From a virus: DNA of 29,424 nucleotides. The stretch's first letter is position 1; the number at the start of each line of letters is the position of its first letter. The stretch is taken from positions 1 to 29,424 of the IMG/VR virus record IMGVR_UViG_3300042934_000187, one strand, 5' to 3'. Shown here piece after piece: positions 5,352 through 29,424 of the stretch. Both the position numbers and the translations under genes were made by a program. Below the pieces are notes generated by a model, which was given only the letters and a program-made list of their open reading frames with translations, did not search any database and had not been told where the DNA came from.

Positions 5352-5873
5352 TCACGCCAGATCCGTGACGTCTACGCCGACGACCTCGTACTTCACGGTG
5401 CCGGACTGCTCGACCTTCGTCGGCTGGTCCAGGCCCTCCAGCTTCCGGTACGACTCCGCGATGGACTGCATGCGCTGGAGAGCAGCCAGCTTCGGTGCCG
5501 GATCGATCAGCGGCTGACCGGTCTCCGGGTGGCAGACGACCTTGCCGTGCGCCGTGACGTAGTGGACCTCTTCCTTGATGGCCAGCGCCTCGCGGTACTG
5601 CTCGTCCAGGCGCTGCCGCTCGAACTCCCGGGCCACATCCGTCGCGTCGGCGCGGGCCGCCTTGTACGCGCGCTGAACGCGCAGCCACGCGGTCTGGTGA
5701 GAGGTGCCCATCCGCTCACCGATCTCCCGGTACGTCATGCGCTTGCCGCGCAGCCGTGCCGCCTCGATGTCGAGGGCGCGGACGTCGTCGCGGGTGCGGC
5801 TGCCTTCCGGCTCTTCGCCCTCGCGGAGCATGCCCAGCTCGGCCTTCGGGTCGTCGTCCAGTTCGTCGGCCAT
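5352..5873 (-). CDS. terS: Terminase small subunit
   Basis: This 173-aa DNA-recognition subunit of the packaging machine has a helix-turn-helix at about residues 40-72 (RMTYREIGERMGTSHQTAWLRVQRA). A charged helical segment and a Gly/Val-rich C-terminus that would contact the large subunit follow. I chose ATG at 5873, preceded by GGAGGGCACC, over an in-frame GTG at 5885 that lies inside that ribosome site. It is the first gene of the virion operon, directly behind a promoter and palindromic operator (5893-5956), and is followed after one base by the large subunit. The call rests on fold, size and position. Confidence 0.88.
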   Translation of the reverse strand: MADELDDDPKAELGMLREGEEPEGSRTRDDVRALDIEAARLRGKRMTYREIGERMGTSHQTAWLRVQRAYKAARADATDVAREFERQRLDEQYREALAIKEEVHYVTAHGKVVCHPETGQPLIDPAPKLAALQRMQSIAESYRKLEGLDQPTKVEQSGTVKYEVVGVDVTDLA

Positions 5874-5892
5874 GGTGCCCTCCACTCGCTTA

Positions 5893-5908
5893 TGTCATGG
5901 TCATGACA
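5893..5908. promoter_or_regulatory. Palindromic operator in the leader of the virion operon
   Basis: A perfect 16-bp inverted repeat, TGTCATGGTCATGACA, lies downstream of the -10 element and 20 bases before the small terminase start. Repressor binding here would block the virion operon. Single CATGACA half-sites recur in other intergenic gaps (10898, 12161, 22882, 27117). I do not recognise the cognate regulator. Confidence 0.6.
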
Positions 5909-5926
5909 TGTCAACAGTAGCCGGGA

Positions 5927-5956
5927 AGGATAACGTTGTCATGCACCTGTCGTCAA
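5927..5956 (-). promoter_or_regulatory. Promoter of the virion operon
   Basis: A -35 TTGACG (5956-5951) and a -10 TATCCT (5932-5927) are separated by 18 bases, matching the principal sigma-factor consensus. The spacer contains CATGACAACGTT, which also occurs near the recombinase gene. The predicted start is near 5920, giving a leader of roughly 45 bases that carries the palindromic operator. Confidence 0.6.
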
Positions 5957-5966
5957 GTGGGCACGG

Positions 5967-6003
5967 GAAAGCCCACCCCGGCCAAGCGTCGGGATGGGCT
6001 TTC
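5967..6003 (-). terminator. Terminator of the transfer operon
   Basis: A 14-bp stem with one G-T pair (GAAAGCCCACCCCG with CGGGATGGGCTTTC) lies 15 bases after the stop of the last transfer-operon gene and just upstream of the virion promoter. It separates the transfer and virion transcription units. Confidence 0.75.
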
Positions 6004-6017
6004 TGTCGTCCCTAGGG

Positions 6018-6695: not shown

Positions 6696-6704
6696 GCTTC
6701 CCTC

Positions 6705-7622
6705 TCAGAGGTAGGGGCCGTCGAGCTTCTTGCGCTCCCGGCGGACAGTAGCCGCCACGGAGTCCTTGTTGGCAGTCGGGACGGCGGCCAGGACAGCAGC
6801 CACGACGTCCTTGTTCGGCGAACCGTTCGCGATCTGTTCGCGAACAAGTTCGGCGATGTTCGTCGGTTCGGGAACAGCGAACTCGCTGGTCACAGCCGTG
6901 TTCGCCGCGATGTTCGCGAGCTGTTCGCGAACAGGTTCGGCCGTGATCGCCTCCGTGTTCGCCGGTTCGGGGCGAACCTGTTCGGCCGTGATCGTGGTGC
7001 CCCGCTCGAACTCCAGGGCGGCCAGCAGGCGGGCAGTCTCGTCGTCCATCAGGTACTCGTCCCGCTTGGACTGGGCAAGGGACTTGCGCAGTCCGGCCCG
7101 CTGCTGACGCTGCCGCAGGAGCACCTGGTACTCCTTGTCGAGGCGGACCCTGGTGGTCTCCATGGCGATGAACCACACGCCTTTCGCGGCCAGGGAGACG
7201 GCCGCCCCGATGACGCCGACGAACACCGCGTCCACCAGGTGCCCGTGCCAGACGATCGCCGCCATGGACACCAGGAGCGCGGCGACACCGGCGTTGCGCG
7301 GCAGCTTGATCTTCTCGTCGTCGTACCGGTTCAGGTACTCGGCGACCAGGCACGCCGCCCAGGCCAGGTCGAAGACACCGGCGACGACGTAGCCCCACCC
7401 GGGGGCCAGCTGGTTCAGCATCGACCCGATGGCCACGGTGCCCCAGACGATCGCCCCGACGGTCATCAGGATCGCGGCGACGAACAGGGCCTTGCGCAGC
7501 AGCGCATCCAGGTTGAACGGGATCCGGGGGACGGACTCGGTGTAGTCCTCGTCGAACGTGACGTCCTCGCCGTCCACGCGCTTCGTGACCTCGCGCTGGC
7601 GGGTGACCTGGCGGAGCTTCAT
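6705..7622 (-). CDS. spdB: SpdB-like plasmid spread protein, multipass membrane
   Basis: This 305-aa protein has hydrophobic segments at about residues 44-68, 75-96 and a long pair at 110-153. An amphipathic region with LDKEYQVLLRQRQQRAGL follows, then a polar C-terminal third. This matches the Streptomyces SpdB/DUF2637 class of membrane proteins, which help conjugated plasmids spread between hyphal compartments and interact with TraB. Its ATG overlaps the TraB stop by four bases (ATGA), so the two are coupled. The C-terminal region contains a repeated VREQLAN/VREQIAN motif produced by an array of GTTCG repeats in the DNA (6813-6984). The very C-terminus has a predicted helix of the type seen in small DNA-binding tails. 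Confidence in the family is good; mechanism is known only for relatives. Confidence 0.85.
   Translation of the reverse strand: MKLRQVTRQREVTKRVDGEDVTFDEDYTESVPRIPFNLDALLRKALFVAAILMTVGAIVWGTVAIGSMLNQLAPGWGYVVAGVFDLAWAACLVAEYLNRYDDEKIKLPRNAGVAALLVSMAAIVWHGHLVDAVFVGVIGAAVSLAAKGVWFIAMETTRVRLDKEYQVLLRQRQQRAGLRKSLAQSKRDEYLMDDETARLLAALEFERGTTITAEQVRPEPANTEAITAEPVREQLANIAANTAVTSEFAVPEPTNIAELVREQIANGSPNKDVVAAVLAAVPTANKDSVAATVRRERKKLDGPYL
6813..6984. repeat. Phased GTTCG repeat array inside spdB, candidate TraB recognition locus
   Basis: The pentamer GTTCG occurs 13 times on the plus strand, starting at 6813, 6825, 6836, 6848, 6858, 6866, 6900, 6912, 6923, 6935, 6957, 6965 and 6980. Two blocks share the identical 12-11-12 spacing (6813-6852 and 6900-6939), and each contains the perfect palindrome TGTTCGCGAACA (6835-6846 and 6922-6933). 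The octamer GTTCGCGA occurs four times. Spacing close to one helical turn puts the sites on one DNA face. Streptomyces clt loci contain arrays of 8-bp TraB recognition sequences, so this is the best clt candidate. Confidence 0.6.
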
Positions 7623-9571
7623 GCCTCAGATCCCTTCGTAAGAAGCACAGGTGCGGGCTTCGGTTCTGCGACGGGCTTTTCCACCAACCGGATAGGACCC
7701 CGGCTCTGCCGGATGGCCACGCCGTCCTTGACGAGCTTGTTCACGATCGACGACACCGTCCCGCTGTTCAGGCCGGTAACCTCTTCGATCTCCTTGTTCC
7801 TGGAGGCCCCCTCGCGGAGCGCCTCCAGGACGCGATCCCTGTTGGTGGCGGGAGCGCGGTCCACCGGAGGGACCAGCTGAAGTGCGGGACGGTCCGTGGG
7901 CTCGTGGTCCTGGGCCGGGAGCTGGACCGGCGTAGGTCCACCCTTGGACCAGCTCTTCTGCGGCAGGCGGCGGATGCCGTCATCGTCCAGGGTCCAGGTA
8001 CGGATCAGGCGCGAACCGTAGCCCTTCAAGTAGCCGTGGCCCCGGTACGAGCGGTCCGGCGGGATCTTGTGCGGGGCGTAGTCCGCACAGTCGTCCAGGG
8101 CGGTCTGCGCCTCCTGCTGGTCCGCCACGCGGAGGCTGAAGCGGGTCAGCAGGTTCGGGGCGATCAGGTTGTGCACGCCCGCCGAGTTGCCAGACATGAT
8201 CGGCTTCTGCGTCGCCCACCACAGGACGATCCCCCGAGAACGCCCCAGGCTCGACAGCTCGATCAGCCGCTGGAGACGGTCCTTGTCGTCCTTCACCATG
8301 GCGAGGACGACCTGCCCCTCGTCGACCAGGAGCGTGAGCTGGGTTCCGTCCCAGACGCTGATCCCGCGACGCTTCATGACCGACTTGCGGCGCATCATCT
8401 CGGCGTGGACCTCGTCGATCGCCGCCTCGATCTCGTCGGCCTCGATGGCGACCCGGCAGACCTTCTCCCAGATGTTGGCCTCCTCGCCCTTTCCGTCGAT
8501 GACGATCAGGTCACCGTTCAGGTGGGCGTGGGCCAGCAGCGGACGGGTGGACCAGGATTTGCCCGTACCGGACGCCCCGGCGACCAGGAGCCGCTCGTCG
8601 AACGGGATGTGGACCGTCTCACCGGTCTCGGTGTCCAGTCCCAGGGAGACCATGGACCGGTCCGCAGGCATCAGGGCCGGGGTCCACGCGGACGAAGTGT
8701 GGTCCGCAGCGGACCGGGTGGCCAGCGTGATCTTGGCCCAGCCTCCGCGCGTCCCGGACGTGATCCGCATCCGCAGAGCGGTCCGCGCACCCAGCAGGTT
8801 GCGGACCGAATCGGCCTTCTCGTTCATGGCCTTCACGGTCCACTTGCCGTCCAGCCGTACGTCGCACTGGATACCGCCCACCGTGATCTGCGGGGGAGTG
8901 GTGACCGTGCCGTCCAGACCACGGTCCGACGCGTGCGCCACCCAGAACGCCGGGTCAAGGCGCTCCATGAGCTGCCGCTCCTCCAGCGTGAGTCCGTCGT
9001 CCTCGTACACCTGGACCGACAGGGACCGACGGCCGAGCCACAGCGCGCCCGCGTGCAGCGCGATCAGCCCGGCCGACACCGACGCGGGCCACAGCGTCCA
9101 GTCCTGCGGCGTGGACAGCACGTAGCTGGCCAGGGAGGACGGCACCGCGTGGGAGGCGTGCGTCTGCACCGCTCGGGCCGTGAGAGTCGCCGGGTAGCTG
9201 GCCTTGGCCTGCCTGAGCTTCGCCTCGGCCTCGGCGCGGTGCGCGCGGGCCGCCTTGTACGCCGTGCGCGCGGCGCGGCGGGCGGTGGACAGCGGGTTGG
9301 AGGACTCCTTGCGGGCGGTCGCCCGCTGCGTCTTCGCCTGGGCTGCCGTGGTCCGGGCCGAGTTGTGCGCCTTCTGCGCGTCCATCAGGGCCTTGAGGTT
9401 CTCCGGCGTGCGGAGCTTGAGGCGTCGGTCGGCCTCTTCGCCCCACTTCTGCGCGAACGGGGCGAGCGCGTTCGTCATGGCGTCGAGGGCGTTGGTGGTG
9501 GTGTCGGTCACGGATCCACGAGTCGATTTGGCCCAAGGGGCAGCCTTCGACCATGCTTGCGATACGTCCAC
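7619..9571 (-). CDS. traB: TraB/FtsK-like DNA translocase, conjugative transfer
   Basis: This 650-aa protein is a septal DNA pump. Residues 60-125 form an Ala/Arg/Gln-rich coiled coil, and a membrane segment lies at about 161-180. The FtsK/SpoIIIE motor has Walker A GASGTGKS (332-339), the VIDGKGEE strand and Walker B LLVDEG (414-419). IVLWWATQKP is the typical sensor strand. Residues 577-632 form a winged helix (SRNKEIEEVTGLNSGTVSSIVNKL) equivalent to the gamma domain that reads short DNA repeats in FtsK and TraB. Streptomyces TraB proteins move double-stranded plasmid DNA between hyphae as the only transfer enzyme. The GTG at 9571 follows AAAGGA. Pairing with SpdB supports conjugation rather than chromosome segregation. 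Confidence 0.88.
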   Translation of the reverse strand: MDVSQAWSKAAPWAKSTRGSVTDTTTNALDAMTNALAPFAQKWGEEADRRLKLRTPENLKALMDAQKAHNSARTTAAQAKTQRATARKESSNPLSTARRAARTAYKAARAHRAEAEAKLRQAKASYPATLTARAVQTHASHAVPSSLASYVLSTPQDWTLWPASVSAGLIALHAGALWLGRRSLSVQVYEDDGLTLEERQLMERLDPAFWVAHASDRGLDGTVTTPPQITVGGIQCDVRLDGKWTVKAMNEKADSVRNLLGARTALRMRITSGTRGGWAKITLATRSAADHTSSAWTPALMPADRSMVSLGLDTETGETVHIPFDERLLVAGASGTGKSWSTRPLLAHAHLNGDLIVIDGKGEEANIWEKVCRVAIEADEIEAAIDEVHAEMMRRKSVMKRRGISVWDGTQLTLLVDEGQVVLAMVKDDKDRLQRLIELSSLGRSRGIVLWWATQKPIMSGNSAGVHNLIAPNLLTRFSLRVADQQEAQTALDDCADYAPHKIPPDRSYRGHGYLKGYGSRLIRTWTLDDDGIRRLPQKSWSKGGPTPVQLPAQDHEPTDRPALQLVPPVDRAPATNRDRVLEALREGASRNKEIEEVTGLNSGTVSSIVNKLVKDGVAIRQSRGPIRLVEKPVAEPKPAPVLLTKGSEA

Positions 9572-9647
9572 GAGTGGTCCTTTCAGGGGTTCGTGGATCA
9601 GGGCCGGGCCTCGGTGACACGGGGTCCGGTCCGCTGCATTTGTGCGA

Positions 9648-9733
9648 CCTGACGGTCAGGTTGTTCTCGGAGTGCTTCCTGACCCCTCAGAACTCCCTGA
9701 CCTGCGGTTATGTCTCCTTCCTGATGACCTGAC
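9648..9733. repeat. CCTGAC repeat cluster upstream of traB
   Basis: CCTGAC occurs at 9648, 9678, 9696 and 9728, with CCTGAT at 9720. Two copies sit in palindromes: CCTGACGGTCAGG (9648-9660) and CTGACCCCTCAG (9679-9690). The cluster fills the 181-base gap between the Phd-like gene and traB, which has no convincing coding sequence. The 10-mer CTGACCTGCG (9697-9706) also occurs twice in the origin repeats at 13411 and 13505. It probably binds a regulator of tra expression or a replication/transfer protein. Confidence 0.5.
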
Positions 9734-9752
9734 GGGTATCGGAGAAGAGGGT

Positions 9753-9938
9753 CTACGCGCGCGTGCGCGAGGGCGGCTCGTCCGAAGAGGTCACATGCTC
9801 CGTGATCTGAGGCCGAGGACACAGCATCGCGGCCGGGAGGTTGTACTCAGTGATCAAGAGGCACTCGCCGGTTTCGTTGGCTTCCTTGATGAACCGAGCC
9901 AGGTTGGCTCGAAGTTCTGTGGTCGACACTCGCTTCAT
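9753..9938 (-). CDS. Phd/YefM-like antitoxin-family DNA-binding protein, orphan
   Basis: This protein is 61 aa from ATG at 9938, or 63 aa from ATG at 9944. Residues 1-50 (MKRVSTTELRANLARFIKEA, then GECLLITEYNLPAAML) match the Phd/YefM antitoxin fold: a beta strand and helix that dimerise to bind DNA. The C-terminus is short and polar (TSSDEPPSRTRA), less than the usual toxin-neutralising tail. No Doc, YoeB or RelE-like toxin gene is adjacent. The 9938 start is favoured because the -10 TACGGT ends 6 bases before it, predicting leaderless mRNA. A palindrome overlapping the promoter suggests self-repression. In this position it more likely regulates the tra operon than acts as an antitoxin. Confidence 0.78.
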   Translation of the reverse strand: MKRVSTTELRANLARFIKEANETGECLLITEYNLPAAMLCPRPQITEHVTSSDEPPSRTRA

Positions 9939-9944
9939 AGCCAT

Positions 9945-10064: not shown

Positions 10065-10101
10065 CGCGAAGCCCCCGACGTTCGGTGTCGGGGGCTTCGC
10101 G
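10065..10101 (-). terminator. Terminator of the three-gene operon 10112-10900
   Basis: A perfect 15-bp stem (CGCGAAGCCCCCGAC with its complement, 7-base loop) lies 10 bases after the stop of the 52-aa gene. It lacks a T-run, as is common in high-GC hosts. Confidence 0.8.
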
Positions 10102-10111
10102 TGTACGCGGA

Positions 10112-11049: not shown

Positions 11050-12057
11050 TTATGTGTCCGCATCGTCCAGTCGCTCGGCGATGGACGCGCCCACCGTGTA
11101 CGCGGGGCTGTTGACCAGGCGGCCACGTGCCCGGTCGTACCGGCGCGTGGTGCGCGGGTCCTTGTGGTCCACGCTGTCCTGCATGATGTGCAGCGCTACA
11201 CCCTTGTCCAGGCCGTGGGTGATGTGGCAGTGGCGCAGTACGTGTGGGTGGATGGATCCTGCCTGCGGCAGGGATGCGCGCGTGGCCAGGCGACGCAGCA
11301 TCTTCCACGCCTCGGGCTCACGCATCCGCTCGCCTGTACGCGTGACGAACAGCGGCCCCTCGGTACGGCCTGACAGGTACACCTCAAGGGCGTGAGCGGT
11401 GACCGGGGGCAGCGCCTTCTTCGCGGTCGCCCCACCCTTCAGCGTGACCGTGAGCGTCTTGTGCCCCGCGTCATAGCCCAGGTCGGTCACGTCGGCGCCC
11501 AGGGCTCCGTCGATACGCAGGCCCACGGTGTACAGCAGCAGGCACAGGGCGTAGCTGCGTGCGCTCTGCTTCTTCGCCTCGACCAGCAGCCTGGTCATCT
11601 CATCCTCGGTGAGGCCCTCCGTGTCGGAGTGATCCTGGTCGATCTTCTGACGCTTGACCTTCTTCACCGGGTTGATCTCGGTGGCGTCCACGTCGATCGC
11701 GTAGTCGTAGAAGGAGGAGACCGCAGACATGCGCGCGTTGGCCGTGCTGTTCGGCATGGAGCGCTCTTCCATCATCCGCATGTACGCGTCGCCGTGGGGG
11801 CGGCGAGCGGCCAGGGGGTGCACGCCCACGGAGGAGCAGAAGTCGCTCCAGGCGTGGAAGCCGCGCGCATATGCCCGCCGGGTATTCGGCGACCGTTGCG
11901 CCATCAACCACATGGAGACCAGGCGTGGCAGGTCGTCGGTGTACAGCCGTTCGAGCTTCGTGCGCGCGGACTGCGCCTCGATCGGTTCGATATCCCGAAC
12001 GGGTGCGGAGATCTCGACCAGCTCGGTCGATGGCGTCAACTTCTCATCGTCGCTCAT
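11050..12057 (-). CDS. Tyrosine recombinase / integrase
   Basis: This 335-aa recombinase cuts and rejoins DNA through a tyrosine. The N-terminal SAM-like domain (about 40-125) has the TRRAYARGFHAWSDFC segment of XerC/D-type enzymes. The catalytic domain shows Arg181 (GLRIDGA), Lys207 (LKGGATAKK), His272-Val-Leu-Arg275 (HVLRH), His298 (DSVDHKDP) and nucleophile Tyr307 (RRYDRAR), so the set is complete. It could integrate the element or resolve plasmid dimers. No excisionase and no tRNA-like attachment core is visible nearby, and a replication protein is present, so dimer resolution or optional integration are both open. The gene is monocistronic, leaderless and closed by a strong hairpin. Confidence 0.92.
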   Translation of the reverse strand: MSDDEKLTPSTELVEISAPVRDIEPIEAQSARTKLERLYTDDLPRLVSMWLMAQRSPNTRRAYARGFHAWSDFCSSVGVHPLAARRPHGDAYMRMMEERSMPNSTANARMSAVSSFYDYAIDVDATEINPVKKVKRQKIDQDHSDTEGLTEDEMTRLLVEAKKQSARSYALCLLLYTVGLRIDGALGADVTDLGYDAGHKTLTVTLKGGATAKKALPPVTAHALEVYLSGRTEGPLFVTRTGERMREPEAWKMLRRLATRASLPQAGSIHPHVLRHCHITHGLDKGVALHIMQDSVDHKDPRTTRRYDRARGRLVNSPAYTVGASIAERLDDADT

Positions 12058-12846: not shown

Positions 12847-13076
12847 TTGCTCTCTTCGGCGCTCAGGAAGGCGAACAGCTTCTCGTTGAACTTCTTCATG
12901 GGCGCGGACCACGCGTGGTCGCAGATGTACTCAAAGTCCGGGGCGGGGCCGAGGCACGTGTCGGGGTCGCAGATCGTCTGGTCGACCCGGCCTACGTACA
13001 CCAGGTCCATCCCGCCGCTGGTCTCGTTCTGGATCTCGTAGATGTTGCCGTCCTGATCCACCGTGCGCTTGGTCAT
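12843..13076 (-). CDS. 77-aa hypothetical protein in the RHH operon
   Basis: The ATG at 13076 overlaps the RHH gene stop (ATGA). The protein opens with strands (VDQDGNIYEIQNE, DLVYVGRVD) and then carries three Cys (ICDPDTC, EYICDHAW) before a short basic helix (MKKFNEKLFAFLS). The Cys/His pattern could hold a metal but is not a standard zinc finger. The family is not recognised. Stop and start overlaps with both neighbours indicate strict co-translation. Confidence 0.75.
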   Translation of the reverse strand: MTKRTVDQDGNIYEIQNETSGGMDLVYVGRVDQTICDPDTCLGPAPDFEYICDHAWSAPMKKFNEKLFAFLSAEESK

Positions 13077-13252
13077 GCTTCCTCCTTGTCCTCTCCCTGA
13101 TTCCCCAGTTCCTTGAGGACGGTCTCGACGACGAAGACGCTCATCGACTTGCCCCGGAGCGCAGCCGCCGCCTTGATCCGGTTCCGGATCGGGTCGGTCG
13201 TGTAGATCGTCATGTTGATCTGGTCCTCGCCAGATCCGTCCTTGTCAGCCAT
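13073..13252 (-). CDS. Ribbon-helix-helix DNA-binding protein, 59 aa
   Basis: The ATG at 13252 follows GGAG. After a polar N-terminal tail (MADKDGSGED) comes a beta strand (INMTIYT) and two helices (DPIRNRIKAAAALRG, SMSVFVVETVLKEL), the CopG/Arc/ParG ribbon-helix-helix pattern. Such dimers bind short operators and commonly control plasmid copy number, partition or transfer. It is the first gene of a four-gene operon and lies next to the origin-like repeats, so control of replication or partition is the leading inference. No ParA partner is present in the element, which argues against a classic partition system. Confidence 0.82.
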   Translation of the reverse strand: MADKDGSGEDQINMTIYTTDPIRNRIKAAAALRGKSMSVFVVETVLKELGNQGEDKEEA

Positions 13253-13295: not shown

Positions 13296-13327
13296 GGGGC
13301 TCCGAAGGAGCCCTTGTCGTTTGTTTT
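13293..13327 (+). terminator. Plus-strand terminator-like hairpin beside the RHH promoter
   Basis: CAAGGGGCTCC and GGAGCCCTTG pair with one bulged G around a 3-base loop. TCGTTTGTTTT follows on the plus strand, the arrangement of an intrinsic terminator for rightward transcription. No plus-strand gene leads into it, which suggests an antisense or regulatory RNA over the RHH gene, or simple insulation of the origin region. Confidence 0.45.
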
Positions 13328-13345
13328 CGGAGGGGTTAGGGCCGG

Positions 13346-13592: not shown

Positions 13593-13611
13593 CGGTTTAC
13601 CCAGGAAACGA

Positions 13612-13650
13612 AGAAGGCCCCCAATGTCCGTTTAGACATGGGGGCCTTCT
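13612..13650 (-). terminator. Terminator of the rep gene
   Basis: A long stem (AGAAGGCCCCC and ATGTC paired with GACATGGGGGCCTTCT, one bulged A, 6-base loop) lies 6 bases after the rep stop. A T-rich CTTCGTTTCC follows on the minus strand. Confidence 0.85.
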
Positions 13651-16875: not shown

Positions 16876-16885
16876 AAGAGTCCCC

Positions 16886-20048: not shown

Positions 20049-20051
20049 GGC

Positions 20052-22301: not shown

Positions 22302-22859
22302 ACAGCCCTCCCTCCTGATCCGGCGTTGCTGGCTTGCCCATGTGCTCTATGGCGAGGTACCGGAGGATCTCCGCGTCCTCTGCGAGCAGTTGGCTCGGAA
22401 GACATCCGAACCGCTCGCAGAGGTTGAGGATGAGTTCCGCCTCTACGAGGGGGAGTGGCTTGCCGTTGAAACTTCCATCGGCATTGACGCCTCCAGGGAC
22501 GGCTTGCCACTTGCGGAGTTCTGCTCCAAAGGGGCGGGGACCCCGGCCATCGCGGTGAGCCAGGCGCCGATGATGGTGAGGACGAAGTCGGTGTCGAGCT
22601 TCTTCAGCCCGTCTCGGTCCGTCGGAACGGTGCGTACGCCGTCCTCGGTCAGCTCTTCGAGGTTCCAGGAGACGAGGCAGCCCAGGAAGATGTCGAACAT
22701 CTTCTCGGTGTCCTCGACACTCTCCTGGGTAAGCGACTGGATCCGCTGGATCTCCAGGTAGCCGCCGAGCGGGAGTCCGCGCATCGACACCTGGAGACCC
22801 TCGTATTCGCGGCCTTCGAACTTCAGGTCGTAGGTCTTCGGCGTGATCAGGTAGCCCAT
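22294..22859 (-). CDS. Tail assembly chaperone fusion made by -1 frameshift (gpGT type)
   Basis: Ribosomes that slip back one base at CCCTTTG (22533-22527) read on past the end of the short chaperone to TAA at 22294. The product is 188 aa: 111 residues of the upstream frame and 77 of the second (GAELRKWQAV, then LVEAELILNLCERFGCLPSQ, LLAEDAEILRYLAIEHMGK). The second part resembles the T domain of lambda-type G/GT chaperones, with the FGCLPSQLLAED signature common in actinophages. The fusion ends 8 bases inside the tape measure gene. G and GT coat the tape measure until the tube assembles around it. Confidence 0.85.
22443..22859 (-). CDS. Tail assembly chaperone, unshifted form (gpG type)
   Basis: This 138-aa protein is made when no frameshift occurs. 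The ATG at 22859 has AAGGAGG five bases upstream; an in-frame GTG at 22865 lies within that site and is not used. The body has the strand-rich start YLITPKTYDLKFEGREYEGL and helices (QSLTQESVEDTEKMFDIFL) typical of gpG-like chaperones. The last 27 residues after the slippery site are low-complexity (SMPMEVSTASHSPS), as expected for a short zero-frame tail. Position just before the tape measure is diagnostic. Confidence 0.88.
   Translation of the reverse strand: MGYLITPKTYDLKFEGREYEGLQVSMRGLPLGGYLEIQRIQSLTQESVEDTEKMFDIFLGCLVSWNLEELTEDGVRTVPTDRDGLKKLDTDFVLTIIGAWLTAMAGVPAPLEQNSASGKPSLEASMPMEVSTASHSPS
22527..22533 (-). promoter_or_regulatory. -1 ribosomal frameshift slippery site
   Basis: The minus strand reads C CCT TTG in the chaperone frame, a textbook X XXY YYZ heptamer that re-pairs as CCC TTT after a -1 slip. 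The shifted frame stays open for 77 codons and encodes recognisable chaperone sequence. Confidence 0.85.
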
Positions 22860-22904
22860 GGGCACCTCCTTACGTCAGGGGCATGACATCCCATAAAGGG
22901 ACAA

Positions 22905-23312
22905 CTAGGCCCAAGTCGGGACGTTTCCATCTGCCAGGACGCCAGGAACGGCGAACGTAAGCTCACCGGAGTCCGAGCGGGACAGGGGGTAGTCCGTGAA
23001 CAGCACCTCGTTGGCCAGGGTCTGGCCGGAGACGGTGAGGGTCACGGTGCGTGCGACGGAAGTCGACGGGACCGTCTTGAAGACGTCGTGCGACATGTTC
23101 GAGGCGTCGTTGAAGACACCGTTGAAGGTCACCGAGAAGTCGGCCAGCAGCAGGATCCGCTCGTAGGCCGACTTGTCGATGCCGGTCACGTCCTGGACGC
23201 CACGGGGGGTGGCGAACGACAGGGACGTGAAGTCGTTCTTGATGGCCCGGACGTTGCCGCTCGCATCGTCAACCGACGCGGTAGTCCACCCGAGCCCATT
23301 CTCCTTGCTCAT
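22905..23312 (-). CDS. Tail tube protein, compact form
   Basis: This 135-aa protein starts at ATG 23312 behind AAAGGAGG, one of the strongest ribosome sites in the operon, as expected for an abundant tube protein. Its sequence (VQDVTGIDKSAYERILLLADFS, GVFNDASNMSHDVFKTVPST) matches tail-tube-like proteins of Streptomyces phages. It lies directly upstream of the chaperones and tape measure, the canonical place for the major tail protein. It is homologous to the first 135 residues of the 459-aa protein two genes upstream. The tail tube is probably built from this protein, possibly mixed with the longer one. Confidence 0.88.
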   Translation of the reverse strand: MSKENGLGWTTASVDDASGNVRAIKNDFTSLSFATPRGVQDVTGIDKSAYERILLLADFSVTFNGVFNDASNMSHDVFKTVPSTSVARTVTLTVSGQTLANEVLFTDYPLSRSDSGELTFAVPGVLADGNVPTWA

Positions 23313-23334
23313 GGTTTGTCCTCCTTTGTCCTAT

Positions 23335-23784
23335 TCAGCCGCGCTGGTTGAGGCGGGCGATTTCTTCCTGGTGGGTCGCGAAGTCGTCGACCCACTGATC
23401 CGGTCGGTCATACGTCCGCCGGAATCCGTCCGGGCTCCCCCGGTGGTCACCGCTGCGCCGCACGAACAGCTCCTCGCGGTCGACGCGCGCCTTGTGCTGG
23501 CGGAAGCAGGTCTGTCCGGGACGGAACGAGAACGTCGTCAGGCCGTCCGGTCTCTTGGCCTCCGTGAAGGAGCGCTTGGCCTCCTTGCGGATGTAGTGCG
23601 CCTGGCGCTGCCCCAGCGGGGTGTTCTCGTCCACGTGCGTGTCCCAGCCGTGCACGTACGCGGGGCAGTCCGTCTCCTCGCAGGTCGCTTCGCGCCAGTG
23701 CGTCTTGACGGGGGCGACGATCCCGAAGGTCTCGTACGCCCGCGCGGGCATCTTCGGGTCGATGCGGTTCATCTCGTACGTCAT
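23335..23784 (-). CDS. 149-aa conserved Cys protein of actinophage tail operons, unknown
   Basis: The ATG overlaps the stop of the lectin-bearing tube-like protein (TGATG). The protein has a conserved pattern I recognise from many Streptomyces phages and prophages: THWREATCEETDCPAYVHGW, then QAHYIRKEAKRSF, GQTCFRQH and GDHRGSPDGF. The function is not known. Three Cys and several His may hold a metal. Location between two tube-like genes suggests an assembly factor or minor structural component, but this is positional only. Confidence 0.8.
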   Translation of the reverse strand: MTYEMNRIDPKMPARAYETFGIVAPVKTHWREATCEETDCPAYVHGWDTHVDENTPLGQRQAHYIRKEAKRSFTEAKRPDGLTTFSFRPGQTCFRQHKARVDREELFVRRSGDHRGSPDGFRRTYDRPDQWVDDFATHQEEIARLNQRG

Positions 23785-25163
23785 CAGAAGGTCACCGCCA
23801 CGGGGTTGCGCACCACGTTCACGGCGAACTGGGCGTTGGTGAAGGTTCCGGTGGTCACGACCCGCAGGTAGCGCTCGACGTTCTGTGTGGTCGAGGTGGC
23901 TATTCGTTCGGTGGTGACGCCGGTCGCTGCGGTGAACGACCCACCCGTGACGTCCGTCCAGGCGTCGTTCACGCCGTTGTCGGCGGACTCCTGGAGCTTC
24001 ACGGTCACCGACGTTCCGGTGAAGGCGAACACCTGGAGGTATGCCTGGAGGCCGTAGGGGGTGCGGCTCGTCGGGATCGCCGTGCCGTTCACCGTCCAGG
24101 TCAGCGGAGTCGCGTCCGTGACGCCGGTCGTCGAGGCGACCGGACGGGCGACCGCCGTTCCTTCCAGGCCGTTCTTGACCCAGCCCTCGAAGAACTTGCC
24201 CGCGAAGAAGTCGGAGGTGCCCGCGTTGCGGGAGCCAATCTCCAGGACGGCGGTGGAGGCGTAGACGCTGGTGGCAGTCGCCGTGGTGACCGTCGAGCCG
24301 AGCTGCGTCCAGGTGACTCCGTCGTCCGAGGTGTAGAACTTGACGTCGTACCCGGAGGCGCCGTTGTCGACGTCCAGGGTCGCCCGGACCCACTTCACGG
24401 CACCACTCGCCAGGGCCGACAGGTTGGCCGTGGAGTTCTTCGAGATGGCGGCCGTGCCGTCGTTGGAGAACTGGAGGGCCAGGTTGCCGGTGGTGGTGAG
24501 GACCAGGGCGTAGGAGCGCTGGTTACCGGTGACCGTGTACTTCGAGATGATGTAGCTGTCGGCGGCCGGAGTCCAGTCATCTGCCGCGATCTTGGCGGCG
24601 ATGTCCAGGTCCCCGGTGATGTCCAGCCCGGCAGCGTCCGGCGTGGTGATGGTGTTTCCGGAGGATCCCGGCAGCTGGATATATGCATCCCCACCGGTGA
24701 GGCTGATGGAGCTGCCGTTGGTCGCCGTGGTGTCGGTGCGGATCCCGGCGGTGCCCAGGCGGCCCCACTCCAGGCCGTAGCCGTTGGCCTGCGCCTGGAG
24801 GGCGAAGGTGAAGGCGCCGTCGTCTCCTCGGTTGCCGTCGTAGTTGATCTGCTTGGCGACCATCGAAGCGCAGGGGTTGCCCAACGTGGTGCCACGGCAG
24901 TACATGACGTGCACGTCCGACGTGGGGAGCGTCTTCAGGACGGGGTGAGCCTGGCTCGACGCGTCGTTGAAGTAGCTGGTCCACTCGATACGGCCGTCGC
25001 GCAGACCGCCGATGCGCTCGTAGGCGCTCTTGTTGATGGGCGTGACATCCAGCACGGCAGGACCACCACCGATGGCCCCGAGTGACTGGGTGTCACCAGA
25101 GAGGTCGTATCCGCCGACGAAGAGCGCGTCTCCGAGGCCCGACTGCTTGCTCAGGGTAATCAC
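23784..25163 (-). CDS. Tail-tube-like protein with a lectin-like insert and Ig-like C-terminus
   Basis: This 459-aa protein has three parts. Residues 1-135 are tube-like and share VTPINKSAYERI, YFNDASSQAHPVLKTLPTS and the overall pattern with the 135-aa tube protein. Residues about 155-345 are a concanavalin-A-like domain (TPDAAGLDITGDLDI, NQRSYALVL, DVDNGASGYDVKFY, WTQLGSTVT) nearly the same in motif order as the first lectin domain of the tail tip. The last 110 residues look like an immunoglobulin-type domain (TSVTVKLQESADNG, YLRVVTTGTF). The GTG start at 25163 has an unusually close AAGGAGGGG. It may decorate the tail outside or provide extra receptor contacts. Confidence 0.85.
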   Translation of the reverse strand: MITLSKQSGLGDALFVGGYDLSGDTQSLGAIGGGPAVLDVTPINKSAYERIGGLRDGRIEWTSYFNDASSQAHPVLKTLPTSDVHVMYCRGTTLGNPCASMVAKQINYDGNRGDDGAFTFALQAQANGYGLEWGRLGTAGIRTDTTATNGSSISLTGGDAYIQLPGSSGNTITTPDAAGLDITGDLDIAAKIAADDWTPAADSYIISKYTVTGNQRSYALVLTTTGNLALQFSNDGTAAISKNSTANLSALASGAVKWVRATLDVDNGASGYDVKFYTSDDGVTWTQLGSTVTTATATSVYASTAVLEIGSRNAGTSDFFAGKFFEGWVKNGLEGTAVARPVASTTGVTDATPLTWTVNGTAIPTSRTPYGLQAYLQVFAFTGTSVTVKLQESADNGVNDAWTDVTGGSFTAATGVTTERIATSTTQNVERYLRVVTTGTFTNAQFAVNVVRNPVAVTF

Positions 25164-25170
25164 CCCCTCC

Positions 25171-25632
25171 TTACGGGACCTGGTCCCAGACGTTGTTGAT
25201 GAGGATCGGGACGGTGATGTCCATGACCCGGTAGATCGAGTTGGAGTCGATCTGGAAGTATCCGGTCTCGGCGGACAGTGGGGCGCCGGAACGGCCCAGC
25301 AGGTCGACGGACTCCACGCCTCCGCCGAGGGTGAAGTCGTTGGTGAAGGAGTTGATGACGACGTCCGTGATCTTCAGGAGATTGACGTCGATGGCGTCCT
25401 GCGGCTCCGAGAGCATCGGGGAGTGCAGCCGGATCGACAGCTCGATCCGGGCTGACGTCGTCGACAGTCCGGAGGAGTTGACGGCTGGACCAATGGAGTT
25501 GACCCAGACGGAGGCGGTGACGCCCTTCTTGGGTGCCGCCTTCGGCTCGTGGGTGGTCACCACTCCGAAGACGCCCAGGCGCTTCAGGTGGGAGGACACC
25601 TTTGAGACGAGGTCGGCGGCATTGATACTCAA
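25171..25632 (-). CDS. Tail terminator-like protein
   Basis: This 153-aa protein uses TTG at 25632, behind GGGAGGA, overlapping the upstream stop (TTGA). It contains SHLKRLGVFGVVTTHEPKAA, SVWVNSIGPAVNSSGL, ARIELSIRLHSPML and the C-terminal YRVMDITVPILINNVW. This is a pattern I know from Streptomyces phage operons directly before the major tail protein. Size, position and mixed alpha/beta make-up fit the ring protein that caps the tail at the head side. The specific function is inferred by synteny. Confidence 0.82.
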   Translation of the reverse strand: MSINAADLVSKVSSHLKRLGVFGVVTTHEPKAAPKKGVTASVWVNSIGPAVNSSGLSTTSARIELSIRLHSPMLSEPQDAIDVNLLKITDVVINSFTNDFTLGGGVESVDLLGRSGAPLSAETGYFQIDSNSIYRVMDITVPILINNVWDQVP

Positions 25633-26003
25633 CGGATCCTCCCGATGTTCCGGCGGACGACCCGTTCGGCAATGGACGCGGACCGGCGGTTCACGAGCTG
25701 AGCCACCTTGCGGAAGGTGAAGTAGCCCTTGAACCGGGTACGGTGGCGGTTCTTCCCGGACTCCAGCCACGGCCCGTACGACACGTTGGAGTCGTCGACC
25801 TGCCAGTGGCTTCCGACCTGGTGCAGCCGGATGCGGGACTGGTAGTAGCCGGTCGGGTGCTTCAGGACGCGTTCGAGTCGTGCATGGACCTGGTCCTCGG
25901 CGTAGACGGCGATCTCTTTCTCGATCTGCCGGGAGATGTCCTTGAAAGCGGCCACGGCCCGCCCGTCGAACAGGGGGCCTTCCTCGTTCATACGTACGCC
26001 CAT
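25629..26003 (-). CDS. HK97-gp10-like tail completion protein
   Basis: This 124-aa protein has ATG at 26003; a second in-frame ATG (MNEEG) lies at 25991. The core helix (AVAAFKDISRQIEKEIAVYAEDQVHARLER) and the segment YGPWLESGKNRHRTRFKGYFTF are typical of the HK97 gp10/minor head-tail joining family. The basic C-terminus ends RNIGRIR. It is translated one base after the connector gene stop and overlaps the terminator gene by four bases. It helps complete the neck between head and tail. Confidence 0.85.
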   Translation of the reverse strand: MGVRMNEEGPLFDGRAVAAFKDISRQIEKEIAVYAEDQVHARLERVLKHPTGYYQSRIRLHQVGSHWQVDDSNVSYGPWLESGKNRHRTRFKGYFTFRKVAQLVNRRSASIAERVVRRNIGRIR

Positions 26004-26004
26004 G

Positions 26005-27054
26005 TCACACCGCCCCGACCCGGCCTACGCGCCCGTGGGATCGCAGTACGGACCGGCGGAGGTCGAGCAGTCCTCGGGCGGTGGTGTCCCGCTCCCGGTC
26101 TACCTGGCCGGAGACTCTCGCGTATGCACCGCTGGCCTGCTCCAGGTTGTTGATGGCCTCGGCCATCGCCAGCTCGCGCACCGGCCCAGGGATGTCCCAC
26201 CGGTAGACGGTGGCCCCGGAGTCATGGGTGGCGGCGGACGTACCGAGCGCGCCCCGGGTGACGGTGAGGGTGCGGTACGCGTAGACGGTGGCCCCGGAGG
26301 AGTGGTCGGCGAGGGTGGAACCGTCCCAGGCGCGGATCACGGTGAGGGTATTGCCCGCGATGTCCACGATCCTCATGCGTTCGCTGCCGATCAGGATGAC
26401 CTCGTCGACCGCGAACGTGGTCCCGTCGGCCACGGAGATCCCGACAACGTTGTCCTCACCGGAGACATCGGACTGGAGCGTCTGGCCGGTGGTCAGTGTG
26501 GTCCGGTTGGTGACCAGGAAGCGCTCCGAGTCCACCTTCAGGACGCTGCCGACGCCGATCTGGGCGGCGGTAGCTCCGTCCACCTCGACGGCCGCCTCGG
26601 AGGCGTCCAGGGCTTCCGTGATGGTGCCGACAGCGGTGTTGTCGTCGGTGTATCCCCACAGTCCGGTGATGGCAATGGAACGCTGCCAGGTGTCCTCGAC
26701 GGAGAACGACGCGGAGGATCCCATGTCGACCTCGACACGGTCGTACGGCGGGCCGGAGTTGACGGGCTCCAGGAAGTAGTCCGACGCGGAGAGCGCGGTA
26801 CCACCAGTGGTCAGGGACGTGACGGAGATCAGGTCGTTCTCGTCGAGCCAGAGGCGCCAGGAGCGGGCGTACTGATGGTTGGGCCAGTCGAAGTATCGGG
26901 TCGCCAGGACGGGCGCAAAGCTGCGACGAAGGAAACCCTCAACGGCGCGAGAGGCAGCCTCGATCGCGCGGTCCACCTGCGCGTTGTTGCGCGCAGTTTC
27001 CTTCATGTCAGCGGAGAACTTCACGTCCTCACGCGTGACCAGCCATACGCCCAT
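26005..27054 (-). CDS. Head-tail connector with duplicated beta modules
   Basis: This 349-aa protein starts at ATG 27054 (MGVWLVTREDVKFS); longer forms from upstream ATGs lack a ribosome site. Residues 1 to about 125 are the adaptor part, with an N-terminal helix, the FLRRSFAPVLATRYFDW segment and RVEVDMG. Residues about 165-290 carry beta modules of the type GSERMRIV plus TLTVIRAWDGS, duplicated with TLTVTRGALGT and each followed by HSSGATVY or HDSGATVY. The C-terminal helix (REDLMA-like PVRELAMAEAINNLEQ) resembles gp6-type connectors. Extra beta modules make it longer than a minimal connector. They might project from the neck. Confidence 0.82.
   Translation of the reverse strand: MGVWLVTREDVKFSADMKETARNNAQVDRAIEAASRAVEGFLRRSFAPVLATRYFDWPNHQYARSWRLWLDENDLISVTSLTTGGTALSASDYFLEPVNSGPPYDRVEVDMGSSASFSVEDTWQRSIAITGLWGYTDDNTAVGTITEALDASEAAVEVDGATAAQIGVGSVLKVDSERFLVTNRTTLTTGQTLQSDVSGEDNVVGISVADGTTFAVDEVILIGSERMRIVDIAGNTLTVIRAWDGSTLADHSSGATVYAYRTLTVTRGALGTSAATHDSGATVYRWDIPGPVRELAMAEAINNLEQASGAYARVSGQVDRERDTTARGLLDLRRSVLRSHGRVGRVGAV
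26203..26299. repeat. In-frame duplication inside the connector gene
   Basis: The 19-mer GTAGACGGTGGCCCCGGAG occurs at 26203-26221 and again at 26281-26299, 78 bases apart, which is exactly 26 codons. On the protein it gives two copies of the HxSGATVY motif, so a recent tandem duplication extended the beta region. Confidence 0.7.
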
Positions 27055-27131
27055 CCTGTGCCCTTGCTTTCTTGGCCGTGCGGCCGTCGGCCGCAGGGAG
27101 AGCATGTTGAGTTGTCCATGACAATGCTACC

Positions 27132-27160
27132 GCCTTAGCGCTAGCACCCGCCAGGGTCAA
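27132..27160 (-). promoter_or_regulatory. Possible internal promoter before the connector gene
   Basis: TTGACC (27160-27155) and TAAGGC (27137-27132) are 17 bases apart in the 130-base gap between the 59-aa gene and the connector. The palindrome TTGTCCATGACAA (27112-27124) follows just downstream and contains the CATGACA motif seen at other promoters. This gap is the longest inside the virion operon. Confidence 0.35.
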
Positions 27161-27184
27161 GCTGTTGCGAAGAACTTGCAGGTA

Positions 27185-27364
27185 CTAGTCCTCGGCGTGA
27201 GTGTGCGGGTGCGAGGACTCCGCGTGCTCCAGGGCGTTCTCCAGGAAGGCGATACGCTCCGCCTGCTTCCGGATCGTCAGCTCCGCGACGGCACGGTCGT
27301 ACTGCGCGGGATACAGCTCCTGAAGGGTCGCGAGGACTTCCTCGGGGGTGGCGCTGAGATTCAT
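27185..27364 (-). CDS. 59-aa coiled-coil protein after the fibre-like gene
   Basis: The ATG at 27364 follows GAAGGA at good distance. The protein begins MNLSATPEEVLATLQELYP and continues as an uninterrupted amphipathic helix (AVAELTIRKQAERIAFLENA) ending in a His-rich tail (HPHTHAED). It is a small coiled-coil protein of a kind often found beside tail-fibre genes. It could be an assembly chaperone or trimerisation factor for the upstream fibre-like protein; that is inference. Confidence 0.75.
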   Translation of the reverse strand: MNLSATPEEVLATLQELYPAQYDRAVAELTIRKQAERIAFLENALEHAESSHPHTHAED

Positions 27365-27379
27365 GGGTCAGTCCTTCTT

Positions 27380-28639
27380 CTAGGCAACGCCGAGTGTCGT
27401 GACGGTTCCAGACGAGCCCTTGTACTTGAGGGCGCCGCTCTCCACGTACAGCACGCCGCCGCCGGAGGGCGTCCCGCTGGGTGTGGTGTTGGCGTTGCCG
27501 ATGGCGATCACGCCGACGCCGCTGCCCAGGGACGTGGTGTTCAGGGACAGGCTGGACACGGTGGAGGTCGAGCGGCGGACCACGAATCCCGGCGTCAGGG
27601 TGACGTTGCCGGTGGACCGGGAGATGACCAGTGGGGTGTCCAGCAGCGCGCCGTCGTCGTCGTACCGGGCGACCTGGAAGTTCGTGCCCGCGTTCGTCCC
27701 GGACTCGGTCTCCGAGGTGGCGCGCAGTACCCATCGCCGACCCGAGGTCCCCATGTCCGAGGAGATCGACAGGTGGATCTCCTTGTTGCGGTCGTTGCCG
27801 CCGCCCACCCGCAGGCAGGTCGTCTGTCCGGAGAACGGCCCGGACGTGATGTTCTGCGCCCGGATGGAGAAGTCCGCCAGGTTGGTGCGGATGTTGGTGT
27901 AGTCGACGCCGATCGTCACGTCATCGATGTCGCTGAGGGTGTCAGCGACCTGGTCGATGAACGGAACCTCAAGGCGTCCCTGAAGCTCACCGTTGGAGTC
28001 GGGGATCTCCAGCTCCCAGTGCCCGTGGATCGAGGCGTGGTTGTTGGCCTCGAAGTGGGAGCCGGTCCAGGATATCGGGCGCCACTGAACACCCTCGGCC
28101 AGCGGGTCGCGGGTCGCGGCGACGTACCCGGACTTGTCCGTAGCGGAGACCACCGGCATGTAGTACGCCTGCATGGACTTGGCGTCCGAGCGCATGAGGA
28201 AGTGCCGGATGTTCTCGCCGAAGCTGCTGTAGCTCGCCCGCTGGTACGAGTACAGGTTGATGCGGCCGGTGCCGTCGATGCCGTCCGCGACGTCGTCCGA
28301 GGGGTACGACGAGGAGATGACCAGCCCGGTTGGCTCACGGGAGTTGCCCAGGCCGTGCGGCAGGTTATCGGGGACCGTCGCGTCCGGGGTGGCGGCCACG
28401 GTCAGTGTGCCCTGGAGGCGCTGAGTTTCCCCGCCGGAGGCGGAGATGATGGTCATGGCGGGCACGGACGTGTTCGCGGACTGCACCACCAGCGCCTGTC
28501 CGAGGCCAGACGTTGCGGTGTTCTGCACGTACATGGCGTGCGTTCCGGACGTGCCGGAGGACGGCGTGTGCCGGATGTCAGCACCCGTGAACGAGCTGTC
28601 GGGGTTGCGGATCGAGAGACGATCGCCGTCAAGGCTCAT
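27380..28639 (-). CDS. Tail-fibre-like or head-fibre-like virion protein
   Basis: This 419-aa protein starts at ATG 28639 behind GAGGAGGGCGGC. It is Ser/Thr/Gly-rich and beta-rich throughout. Its end, with NANTTPSGTPSGGGVLYVE then GALKYKGSSGTVTTLG, is a motif common at the C-terminus of actinophage fibre proteins. Repetitive motifs near the N-terminus (ADIRHTPSSGTSGTHAMYVQ) are also fibre-like. The 100-300 region has no glycosidase signature I can identify. It is unusual that a fibre-like gene lies between capsid and connector genes, not after the tail tip, so a head fibre is a real alternative. Confidence 0.78.
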   Translation of the reverse strand: MSLDGDRLSIRNPDSSFTGADIRHTPSSGTSGTHAMYVQNTATSGLGQALVVQSANTSVPAMTIISASGGETQRLQGTLTVAATPDATVPDNLPHGLGNSREPTGLVISSSYPSDDVADGIDGTGRINLYSYQRASYSSFGENIRHFLMRSDAKSMQAYYMPVVSATDKSGYVAATRDPLAEGVQWRPISWTGSHFEANNHASIHGHWELEIPDSNGELQGRLEVPFIDQVADTLSDIDDVTIGVDYTNIRTNLADFSIRAQNITSGPFSGQTTCLRVGGGNDRNKEIHLSISSDMGTSGRRWVLRATSETESGTNAGTNFQVARYDDDGALLDTPLVISRSTGNVTLTPGFVVRRSTSTVSSLSLNTTSLGSGVGVIAIGNANTTPSGTPSGGGVLYVESGALKYKGSSGTVTTLGVA

Positions 28640-28666
28640 GCCGCCCTCCTCACGTGGTCGTACCGG

Positions 28667-28849
28667 TCAGATCACTTGGCCGTCTTGCGGCCAGAAGTAG
28701 TGCTCTTCGAAGGGGCAGAAGAGCTGCCCATTGTCGCCCTGGGCGAGGACTGTGCCGTCGTACGGGCAGGCTTGTGGGGCGCGTCCTCGCTCTTCGTCGA
28801 GGAGCTTCTGACCGTACCGGGCGATTCCGATGAGGGACTCCCAGGACAT
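28667..28849 (-). CDS. 60-aa zinc-ribbon-like protein, overlapping the upstream gene in another frame
   Basis: The ATG at 28849 has a strong ribosome site (GAGGAGCAGGA) inside the upstream gene. The sequence MSWESLIGIARYGQKLLDEE is followed by PQACPYDGTVLAQGDNGQLFCPFE, a CPYDG...FCPF pattern I know from small proteins in Streptomyces phage head operons (usually CPNDG...CPFDG). The gene lies almost entirely within the upstream 108-aa gene but in a different frame, and ends five bases beyond it. Both frames match known patterns, so this looks like a true overlapping pair. Confidence 0.78.
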   Translation of the reverse strand: MSWESLIGIARYGQKLLDEERGRAPQACPYDGTVLAQGDNGQLFCPFEEHYFWPQDGQVI

Positions 28850-28998
28850 TCCTGCTCCTCACCTGCATGGGACGGCCCCCCGTGGACCGTGATCTTGGGC
28901 ATTCCGGTCTCCTCGTGGTCCGTGGATCGGCAGTGCGGGCAGGCCGGGAGGCCCACCGCGTAGGCGGTGGTGCACTCCCGGCATGTGTATGTGGCCAC
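28672..28998 (-). CDS. 108-aa protein: zinc ribbon, MPKITVHGGP motif, Ser/Thr-rich tail
   Basis: The GTG at 28998 begins 9 bases after the capsid-associated gene stop. Residues 1-30 hold two CxxC knuckles (CREC, CPHC), a zinc ribbon. MPKITVHGGPSHA at about residue 33 is a motif found in many Streptomyces phage and prophage proteins of the head operon. The remaining 55 residues are Ser/Thr/Lys/Pro-rich and disordered; 178 bases of this tail also encode the 60-aa protein in another frame. Function is unknown, possibly a small virion or assembly protein. Confidence 0.8.
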   Translation of the reverse strand: MATYTCRECTTAYAVGLPACPHCRSTDHEETGMPKITVHGGPSHAGEEQECPGSPSSESPGTVRSSSTKSEDAPHKPARTTAQSSPRATMGSSSAPSKSTTSGRKTAK

Positions 28999-29006
28999 GC
29001 GGTGCC

Positions 29007-29424
29007 TCAGCTCAGCGGAGCACGCAGGTTGGCGGGCTTACGCTTCACTTCCAGGTTGTGCAGGATGTACAGCACGCTGCCCAGCTGGGCGTTGGTGCCG
29101 ACGTCCGCGACGTCCAGGGATACGTAGGAGTAGCCGTCGGAGAGCTGCTCGGCACGGACCTCGATGACGACGATCTGCTGCTCTTCGGCGGAGGTGGTCG
29201 CGCCGCCCGGGTCGACGATGGTCGCGGCGGCGGTCTGGGCCTTGCGGGTCCAGGTCTCGTCGCCGTCGAGTGTCGCCTCGGCCTTCAGGTAGTAGTGGTC
29301 GATCACCGCGAGGTCGGCCGTGGTGCCGCCCGAGGAAGCGGTGTGCTGCTTCAGCGTGACGGTCGGGTCGTCGCCAGCGGTGCCCGCGCCCTTGAACAGG
29401 ACGATGGAAACGCCGGTGGCGTCC
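29007..29424 (-). CDS. Capsid-associated virion protein, C-terminal part (junction-spanning gene)
   Basis: The frame is open from the right edge of the window to a TGA at 29007. The last 127 bases duplicate positions 1-127, so the real coding sequence is 228 to 1 followed by 29297 to 29007, giving 172 aa in one uninterrupted frame. The C-terminal half contains TRKAQTAAATI, a Glu/Gln-rich stretch and a beta-strand pattern (QQIVVIEVRAEQL, YVSLDVADV) ending LRAPLS. It has no Cys, membrane segment or signal peptide. As the gene after the major capsid protein it is most likely a head decoration or minor capsid protein. The function is positional inference; the reading frame itself is well supported. 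Confidence 0.8.
   Translation of the reverse strand, partial: DATGVSIVLFKGAGTAGDDPTVTLKQHTASSGGTTADLAVIDHYYLKAEATLDGDETWTRKAQTAAATIVDPGGATTSAEEQQIVVIEVRAEQLSDGYSYVSLDVADVGTNAQLGSVLYILHNLEVKRKPANLRAPLS
29298..29424. repeat. 127-bp terminal direct repeat, right copy
   Basis: This is an exact copy of positions 1-127. Removing it leaves a 29,297-bp circle in which the 172-aa capsid-associated gene is intact. Confidence 0.95.

Follow-up and report, generated by a model that had tools for sequence, protein, structure and literature searches.

A putative Streptomyces phage-plasmid with a plasmid-type TraB in an exchangeable slot and a predicted SpdB-binding repeat array within spdB

Introduction

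Replicons that join phage structural genes to plasmid functions have been described in Streptomyces: pZL12, a linear plasmid-phage reported in 2010, is described by citing papers as a transferable element with a plasmid/lytic phage cycle, and pSLE1 is a circular relative of 86 kb. Here, we report on IMG/VR virus record IMGVR_UViG_3300042934_000187, analyzed over positions 1 to 29,424 (this whole stretch of 29,424 nucleotides is referred to as the window), whose element encodes a full set of virion genes together with the transfer protein TraB and the membrane protein SpdB. The element appears to be a small circular form of the kind that pZL12 exemplifies, the kind itself being already known. 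pZL12 and pSLE1 resemble the window in carrying phage structural genes with a DNA-transfer ATPase gene directly before that of the terminase, but differ in size (86–90 kb versus 29 kb), terminase neighborhood and tail. The window's transfer ATPase is a TraB of the pIJ101 type; that of pSLE1 carries a type IV secretion DNA-transfer annotation and gives a weak match (3e-7) to a TraB profile.

The conjugative plasmid pIJ101 and an 8.7-kb S. californicus plasmid likewise carry TraB followed by spd genes, and the window SpdB is homologous to pIJ101 SpdB. Unlike the window, both plasmids lack phage genes, replicate differently and have a divergent GntR-type korA, in place of which the window traB is accompanied by a Phd-like gene. 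The functions of spread proteins in plasmid spreading are largely unknown (PMC4170104). In pIJ101, the palindrome sps lies within spdA2 and is bound by the SpdA2 protein, and sps affects stability, not transfer (PMC4170104); SpdA2 is thus a spread-family protein with a DNA target in its own coding region, as we predict for the window SpdB, yet it is a different protein with one conserved palindrome, whereas the window has a membrane protein gene and an array whose motif varies with the class of the encoded helix-turn-helix (HTH).

Two further kinds of element invite comparison. Like the window, the 36.7-kb circular phage-plasmid NBC_01259 unnamed3 has genes for capsid, protease, portal, terminase and tail, a recombinase from the same family and a repeat array in an SpdB-type gene; it differs in having no annotated TraB/FtsK and in carrying DnaB-type replication and ParA. 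Actinomycete integrative and conjugative elements (AICEs) combine Int, Rep (prim-pol in some) and an FtsK-type Tra for transfer of double-stranded DNA (PMC3218068). These three components recur in the window; of the two marks of an AICE, site-specific integration and the lack of virion genes, neither was found, since virion genes are present and no chromosomal attachment site was detected in the Streptomyces genomes searched.

Results

The record of 29,424 bases begins and ends with the same 127 bases and is a circular map of 29,297 bp.

1–127, no strand: terminal direct repeat, identical to 29298–29424, closing a circle of 29,297 bases

The length of the overlap suggests an assembler k-mer overlap. 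Nearly all genes of the circle lie on the minus strand, with packaging and head genes (TerS, TerL, portal, ClpP-type protease, capsid) at 320–5885 and tail genes at 17295–28639, amounting to the full virion morphogenesis and packaging set expected of a phage-plasmid. Relatives point to Streptomyces as the probable host genus. The first-pass annotation of this DNA had proposed a siphovirus gene set, a Rep, TraB and SpdB on one circle, which homology searches and the terminal repeat bear out; it described the range 5352–29297 correctly, but most head genes, at 320–5885, fall outside that range.

The transfer module consists of two genes, in which the start of spdB overlaps the stop of traB, placing TraB and SpdB in one operon.

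7619–9571, minus strand: TraB, FtsK/SpoIIIE-type translocase of 650 amino acids (aa) with a C-terminal winged HTH, full length
6705–7622, minus strand: SpdB-like membrane protein, 305 aa, with a hydrophobic N-terminal domain (by hydropathy), a linker and a C-terminal HTH-like segment

TraB carries the motor motifs GASGTGKS (Walker A) and LLVDEGQ (Walker B), which together with the winged HTH give the make-up of a TraB-type protein. Its closest full-length relatives are plasmid-borne, namely the protein of the S. californicus plasmid (63.6% identity over 92% of the query) and that of pIJ101 (40% over 96%); phage FtsK-like proteins align over 52–73% of the window TraB at 33–54% identity. In the TraB tree, the window protein is placed together with that of the S. 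californicus plasmid and with the long-branched Mischief19 (99/99), the position of such long phage branches being unsure. Divergence between the window and S. californicus plasmid genes is highest at third codon positions (0.43 versus 0.23–0.28), as purifying selection would give. It had been proposed earlier that a traB/spdB pair always residing in obligate phages would speak against transfer; instead, closely related TraBs sit on small plasmids. The accompanying remark that TraB-like translocases also occur in some actinophages is correct, FtsK-like proteins being found in Mischief19 and Xkcd426. We had considered the winged HTH as a plasmid-only mark, based on its lack in Mischief19, and dropped this idea upon finding an HTH-like C-terminus in Xkcd426, TP1604, Frankenweenie and Quantum. 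As actinophage FtsK-like proteins also have winged HTHs, the domain alone does not separate a plasmid from a phage role. A GTCAGG/CCTGAC cluster before traB was likewise discarded as a special site, as it is no stronger than several other clusters.

Viral contigs searched with TraB and with Rep patterns gave no match; relatives were reached through portal, TerL and tail proteins instead. These relatives share the backbone (TerL 94–95% identical in the closest, portal about 80%) and, as a check proposed in the first-pass annotation had asked, some have both modules: in five of them (G003, G004, G006, G032, G033), gene order is the same and the slot between spdB (90–91% identical) and small backbone genes (g99, 72%) holds another TraB, with 24–29% identity to that of the window. 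The TraBs of G004, G006 and G033 are 100% identical and represent one lineage, so that three distinct TraBs were seen. G003 and G004 are particularly instructive: their DNA is 95.8% identical on the spdB side and 82% identical beyond the slot, while over about 1.1 kb inside traB (L040 12827–13966 versus L043) the proteins fall to 22–47% identity and the C-terminal winged HTH is 93–94% identical. Judged from these alignments, this pair has swapped only the N-terminus and motor. The motors of the swapped TraBs are intact. The pattern is that of a motor exchanged into a kept place, which favors a maintained transfer function over a passing insertion.

Two observations concern the surroundings of the slot. 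The contig of a close relative, G005 (L044 6311–10848), is a fragment; in place of the TraB/Int region it encodes a serine recombinase, an SpdB-type protein and additional membrane proteins. A perfect 15-bp hairpin (CGCGAAGCCCCCGAC/GTCGGGGGCTTCGCG) at 10065–10101 of the window has a diverged counterpart in G003 (L040 14491–14525); it lies close to the border of the exchanged TraB region and is likely to be a terminator.

The SpdB-like protein gave no Pfam or NCBIfam match. When a profile of its 14-member family was aligned by hhalign with an alignment of pIJ101 SpdB and relatives, however, homology was recovered at 94.7% probability (E 6e-8; two controls at about 0), so that both a membrane domain homologous to plasmid SpdB and an spd gene adjoining traB are present. 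The family occurs in 24 of 199 Streptomyces genomes and in 8 of the 11 that contain the element's terminase family (p 2e-6). A TraB-like gene stands beside the SpdB-family locus in 4/20 loci, and several loci are phages without TraB. The first-pass annotation had taken the SpdB partner and the repeat array as favoring transfer. The SpdB partner, however, does not on its own favor transfer, as the family tracks the terminase family with most loci lacking an adjacent TraB, and the Rep repeat array speaks for plasmid replication instead. Between the window and G003, spdB differs at 11% of third codon positions and TerL at 26%; the low value for spdB suggests its recent exchange or a constraint beyond the protein.

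Among short repeats on the circle, CGAACA within spdB forms the strongest cluster, ahead of the iterons.

6812–6984, minus strand: CGAACA array, with eight direct copies spread over two reading frames where spdB encodes the linker, including two 12-bp palindromes TGTTCGCGAACA

None of 300 synonymous-codon shuffles reached this array, by which we rejected a composition artefact of the repetitive linker for the window spdB; its independence of reading frame argues for a site at the DNA level. The array is kept in G003, G004 and G002. When 150 related-element genes were ranked by repeat excess, the top five included spdB of the window, of G003 and of G220, as well as a gene of NBC_01259 identified by eye as SpdB-type. 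DUF2637 genes from Streptomyces genomes had no such arrays (0/30, k=6), so arrays are not general to that domain. In spdB genes of other loci (L040, L160, L161, L153, L107, L045), we observed element-specific 6–8-bp repeat arrays in two or three reading frames.

Array motifs vary from element to element, in step with the HTH class at the C-terminus of the encoded SpdB. Proteins ending in SV[AE]ATVRRE..KL (window, G003, G210) go with CGAACA. For those ending in [ST]V.R[YH].R, the motif is TCCGGA, with all eight genes exceeding all 100 shuffles versus 2/12 others, and a density of 10.3 sites per kb versus 0.9 elsewhere in the same loci. The rule was formed before three of the eight TCCGGA genes had been seen (L127, L130, L132), the other five having partly shaped it; as these genes are related (33–67% identity), shared descent enters into the covariation of motif and HTH. 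CCGTGAGC is common to two plasmid SpdBs that have the same HTH, and some members of the SpdB family are without an array. SpdB-type proteins with GVSxATxGRRL-like HTHs (Streptomyces loci L123 and L125; pSLE1, L109:16893–18020) were seen to go with CTGAGC, GTCTCA/TGAGAC and GGCTCA repeats, perhaps one CTCA-core class. As the array is kept while the winged HTH of TraB changes (26% identity), SpdB would be a likelier reader than TraB. We read the CGAACA array as a self-encoded, predicted SpdB-binding array, possibly for membrane-tethered spreading or segregation.

Genes for replication, recombination and small proteins lie between the transfer module and the tail genes.

9753–9944, minus strand: small protein of the Phd/YefM type, encoded upstream of traB and a candidate regulator (TIGR01552 passes the cut-off, PF02604 narrowly misses it)
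11050–12057, minus strand: Xer-like tyrosine recombinase (PF00589, E 1e-22)
13073–13252, minus strand: ParD/TacA-like ribbon-helix-helix protein adjoining the iterons (PF09386, E 5e-7)
13320–13620, no strand: iteron-like region, likely replication origin (repeats at 13383–13518)
13657–16428, minus strand: Rep, 923 aa, with a prim-pol-like N-terminus, a P-loop (helicase-like) center and a C-terminal HTH-like domain (weak primase PHROG matches: phrog_10514, E 7e-6; phrog_28894, E 5e-4)

The primase-polymerase/helicase assignment of Rep made in the first pass agrees with the P-loop (Walker A GKSGIGKS), the weak PHROG matches and the prim-pol-type motifs WLDGDF and DRLMRLPGSVNRK, which were read by eye. 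The C-terminal half of Rep has 50% identity to a Streptomyces protein. Its gene adjoins the GGTTTCGCCC iterons, with tandem GGTTTCGCCCTA at 13442–13475 and the 29-bp direct repeat ATGGGCGTAACCCCTCTGACCTGCGAAAA at 13396 and 13490. The Rep of G003 is largely unrelated (P4-family primase-like), and its iteron-like repeat is also different (ACCCCACA). No ParAB was found on the window element. The recombinase, which the earlier account lacked, is XerC/D-like by score and probably a dimer resolvase; its nearest plasmid relatives belong to the phage-plasmids pSLE1 and pSAM1 (45–46% identity) and to the 36.7-kb phage-plasmid without annotated TraB. In 61 Streptomyces genomes, the int-proximal region (its downstream side not covered) had no att-like chromosomal match beyond scattered short, low-score ones, and no tRNA-type attachment site was found.

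The virion genes and their neighbors are as follows.

320–1684, minus strand: HK97-type major capsid protein (PF05065, E 9e-57)
1677–2684, minus strand: ClpP-type head maturation protease (phrog_2976, E 6e-81; PF00574)
2446–3825, minus strand: portal protein (PF04860, E 1e-56)
4031–5350, minus strand: large terminase, TerL (phrog_2, E 4e-40; 94–95% aa identity in at least five relatives)
5352–5885, minus strand: probable small terminase, TerS, an HTH protein directly upstream of TerL (HTH matches and position; 88% identity in relatives)
16624–17136, minus strand: open reading frame containing a short coiled-coil protein with one transmembrane segment after the tail genes, holin candidate (phrog_5225, function unknown)
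17295–20048, minus strand: tail (tip) protein, 917 aa (phrog_5313, E 5e-277)
20052–22301, minus strand: tape measure protein (phrog_305, E 2e-29)
23784–25163, minus strand: tail-region protein, probable major tail protein (phrog_5313 stretch, E 2.5e-22)
25629–26003, minus strand: neck/tail completion-like protein (phrog_5, E 0.025, weak, and position)
26005–27105, minus strand: head-tail adaptor (phrog_442, E 3e-12)
27380–28639, minus strand: tail-spike/fibre-like protein (phrog_29706, E 7e-6)

The 917-aa tail protein has counterparts in phiSASD1-like Streptomyces siphophages (38–39% over the full length), and a domain of the probable major tail protein, whose N-terminal 173 aa are 75% conserved in G002/G003, resembles part of it. 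In the holin candidate, residues 95–171 are conserved at 83% in G003.

Discussion

Taken together, we consider it somewhat probable that the element is a Streptomyces phage-plasmid with a plasmid-derived transfer module. This layout is indicated by the phage gene set, the circular map, the full-length plasmid-type TraB, the traB–spdB overlap and the SpdB homology, and is in line with the recombinase having its best relatives on phage-plasmids and with the lack of an att-like match near int. Spread both as a virus and by cell-to-cell transfer is plausible, with pZL12 as precedent. Between infections, the circular replicon would be kept by the prim-pol/helicase Rep acting at the iterons, and multimers would probably be resolved by the Xer-like recombinase. 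Induction would yield a siphovirus particle from the encoded packaging, head and tail set. TraB, a predicted hexamer-type double-stranded DNA translocase from the pIJ101-like plasmid pool, would be made together with SpdB and, as characterized TraB proteins suggest, pump double-stranded copies through hyphal contacts or septa. The TraB slot would be functional and replaceable, different TraBs having apparently been exchanged into the same place, while SpdB probably holds the DNA of the element at the membrane via the CGAACA array in its own gene.

Several points weigh against this view. With winged-HTH FtsK-like proteins occurring in actinophages, TraB could possibly have a phage role. The clt site, whose short direct repeats TraB would bind, was not located; of the two repeat clusters near traB (CGAACA in spdB and GTCAGG/CCTGAC at 9648–9733), neither could be tied to TraB, and the CGAACA array is disfavored as its target. 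G005, a close relative albeit a fragment contig, has no TraB in the matching slot. No endolysin was recognized among the element's proteins in family/profile searches. Finally, the circular map can reflect a circular molecule or a circularly permuted linear virion DNA.

A rather unlikely, yet appreciable, alternative is that TraB and SpdB act only within one mycelium, carrying copies across septa after infection or supplying compartments (spreading, stability), with little transfer between mycelia. The tie of spd genes to intramycelial spreading and stability (PMC4170104) is in line with this, as are the frequent occurrence of the SpdB family in phages without TraB and the self-encoded array, which recalls sps inside spdA2 with its effect on stability rather than transfer. 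However, this TraB belongs to the lineage found on autonomous conjugative plasmids, and repeated TraB exchange is not obviously explained by spreading alone.

We regard it as improbable that the element is simply a temperate or lytic actinophage, with an FtsK/TraB-like gene used for phage purposes, such as bringing genomes into new compartments of the hyphae, helping to package DNA or resolving it after replication, and with a map that represents circularly permuted virion DNA. Although FtsK-like translocases exist in the Streptomyces phages Mischief19 (54% identity over 56% of the query) and Xkcd426, and the terminase family of the element is found in Streptomyces genomes with spdB and no TraB nearby, this explanation is at odds with the iterons and plasmid-like Rep, the latter itself exchanged in G003 along with different repeats, with the extrachromosomal elements carrying the recombinase's best relatives, and with the plasmid-borne nature of the closest full-length TraBs. 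An assembly chimera of phage and plasmid, conceivable for a metagenome record in which DNA similarity to relatives stops abruptly at the traB borders, is very improbable and already largely refuted by the five relatives with the same gene order and a TraB-type gene in the slot, and by L003, which is 100% identical to the packaging region over 4.2 kb.

Beyond the phage-plasmid reading of this one element, we tentatively propose, at slightly less than even confidence, that SpdB-type membrane proteins, whether encoded by Streptomyces plasmids, phage-plasmids or phages, anchor DNA in a sequence-specific manner. The C-terminal HTH of each would recognize 6–8-bp sites arrayed across several reading frames in the linker-coding part of its own gene. 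Such an array would serve as a centromere or spreading site that is tethered to the membrane, encoded by the gene itself and carried along with it, in the present case beside a TraB pump with a freely exchanged motor.

If both routes work, this small element could spread in two independent ways, inside particles from one colony to the next and through transfer of double-stranded DNA within and between mycelia, which would bear on how phages colonize a multicellular, septate host. Through the TraB exchange, relatives provide naturally occurring replacements of a conjugation motor in an otherwise constant backbone. The correspondence of motif and HTH in spdB, if true, would give spread proteins a concrete DNA target and would thus be a step to explaining plasmid spreading.

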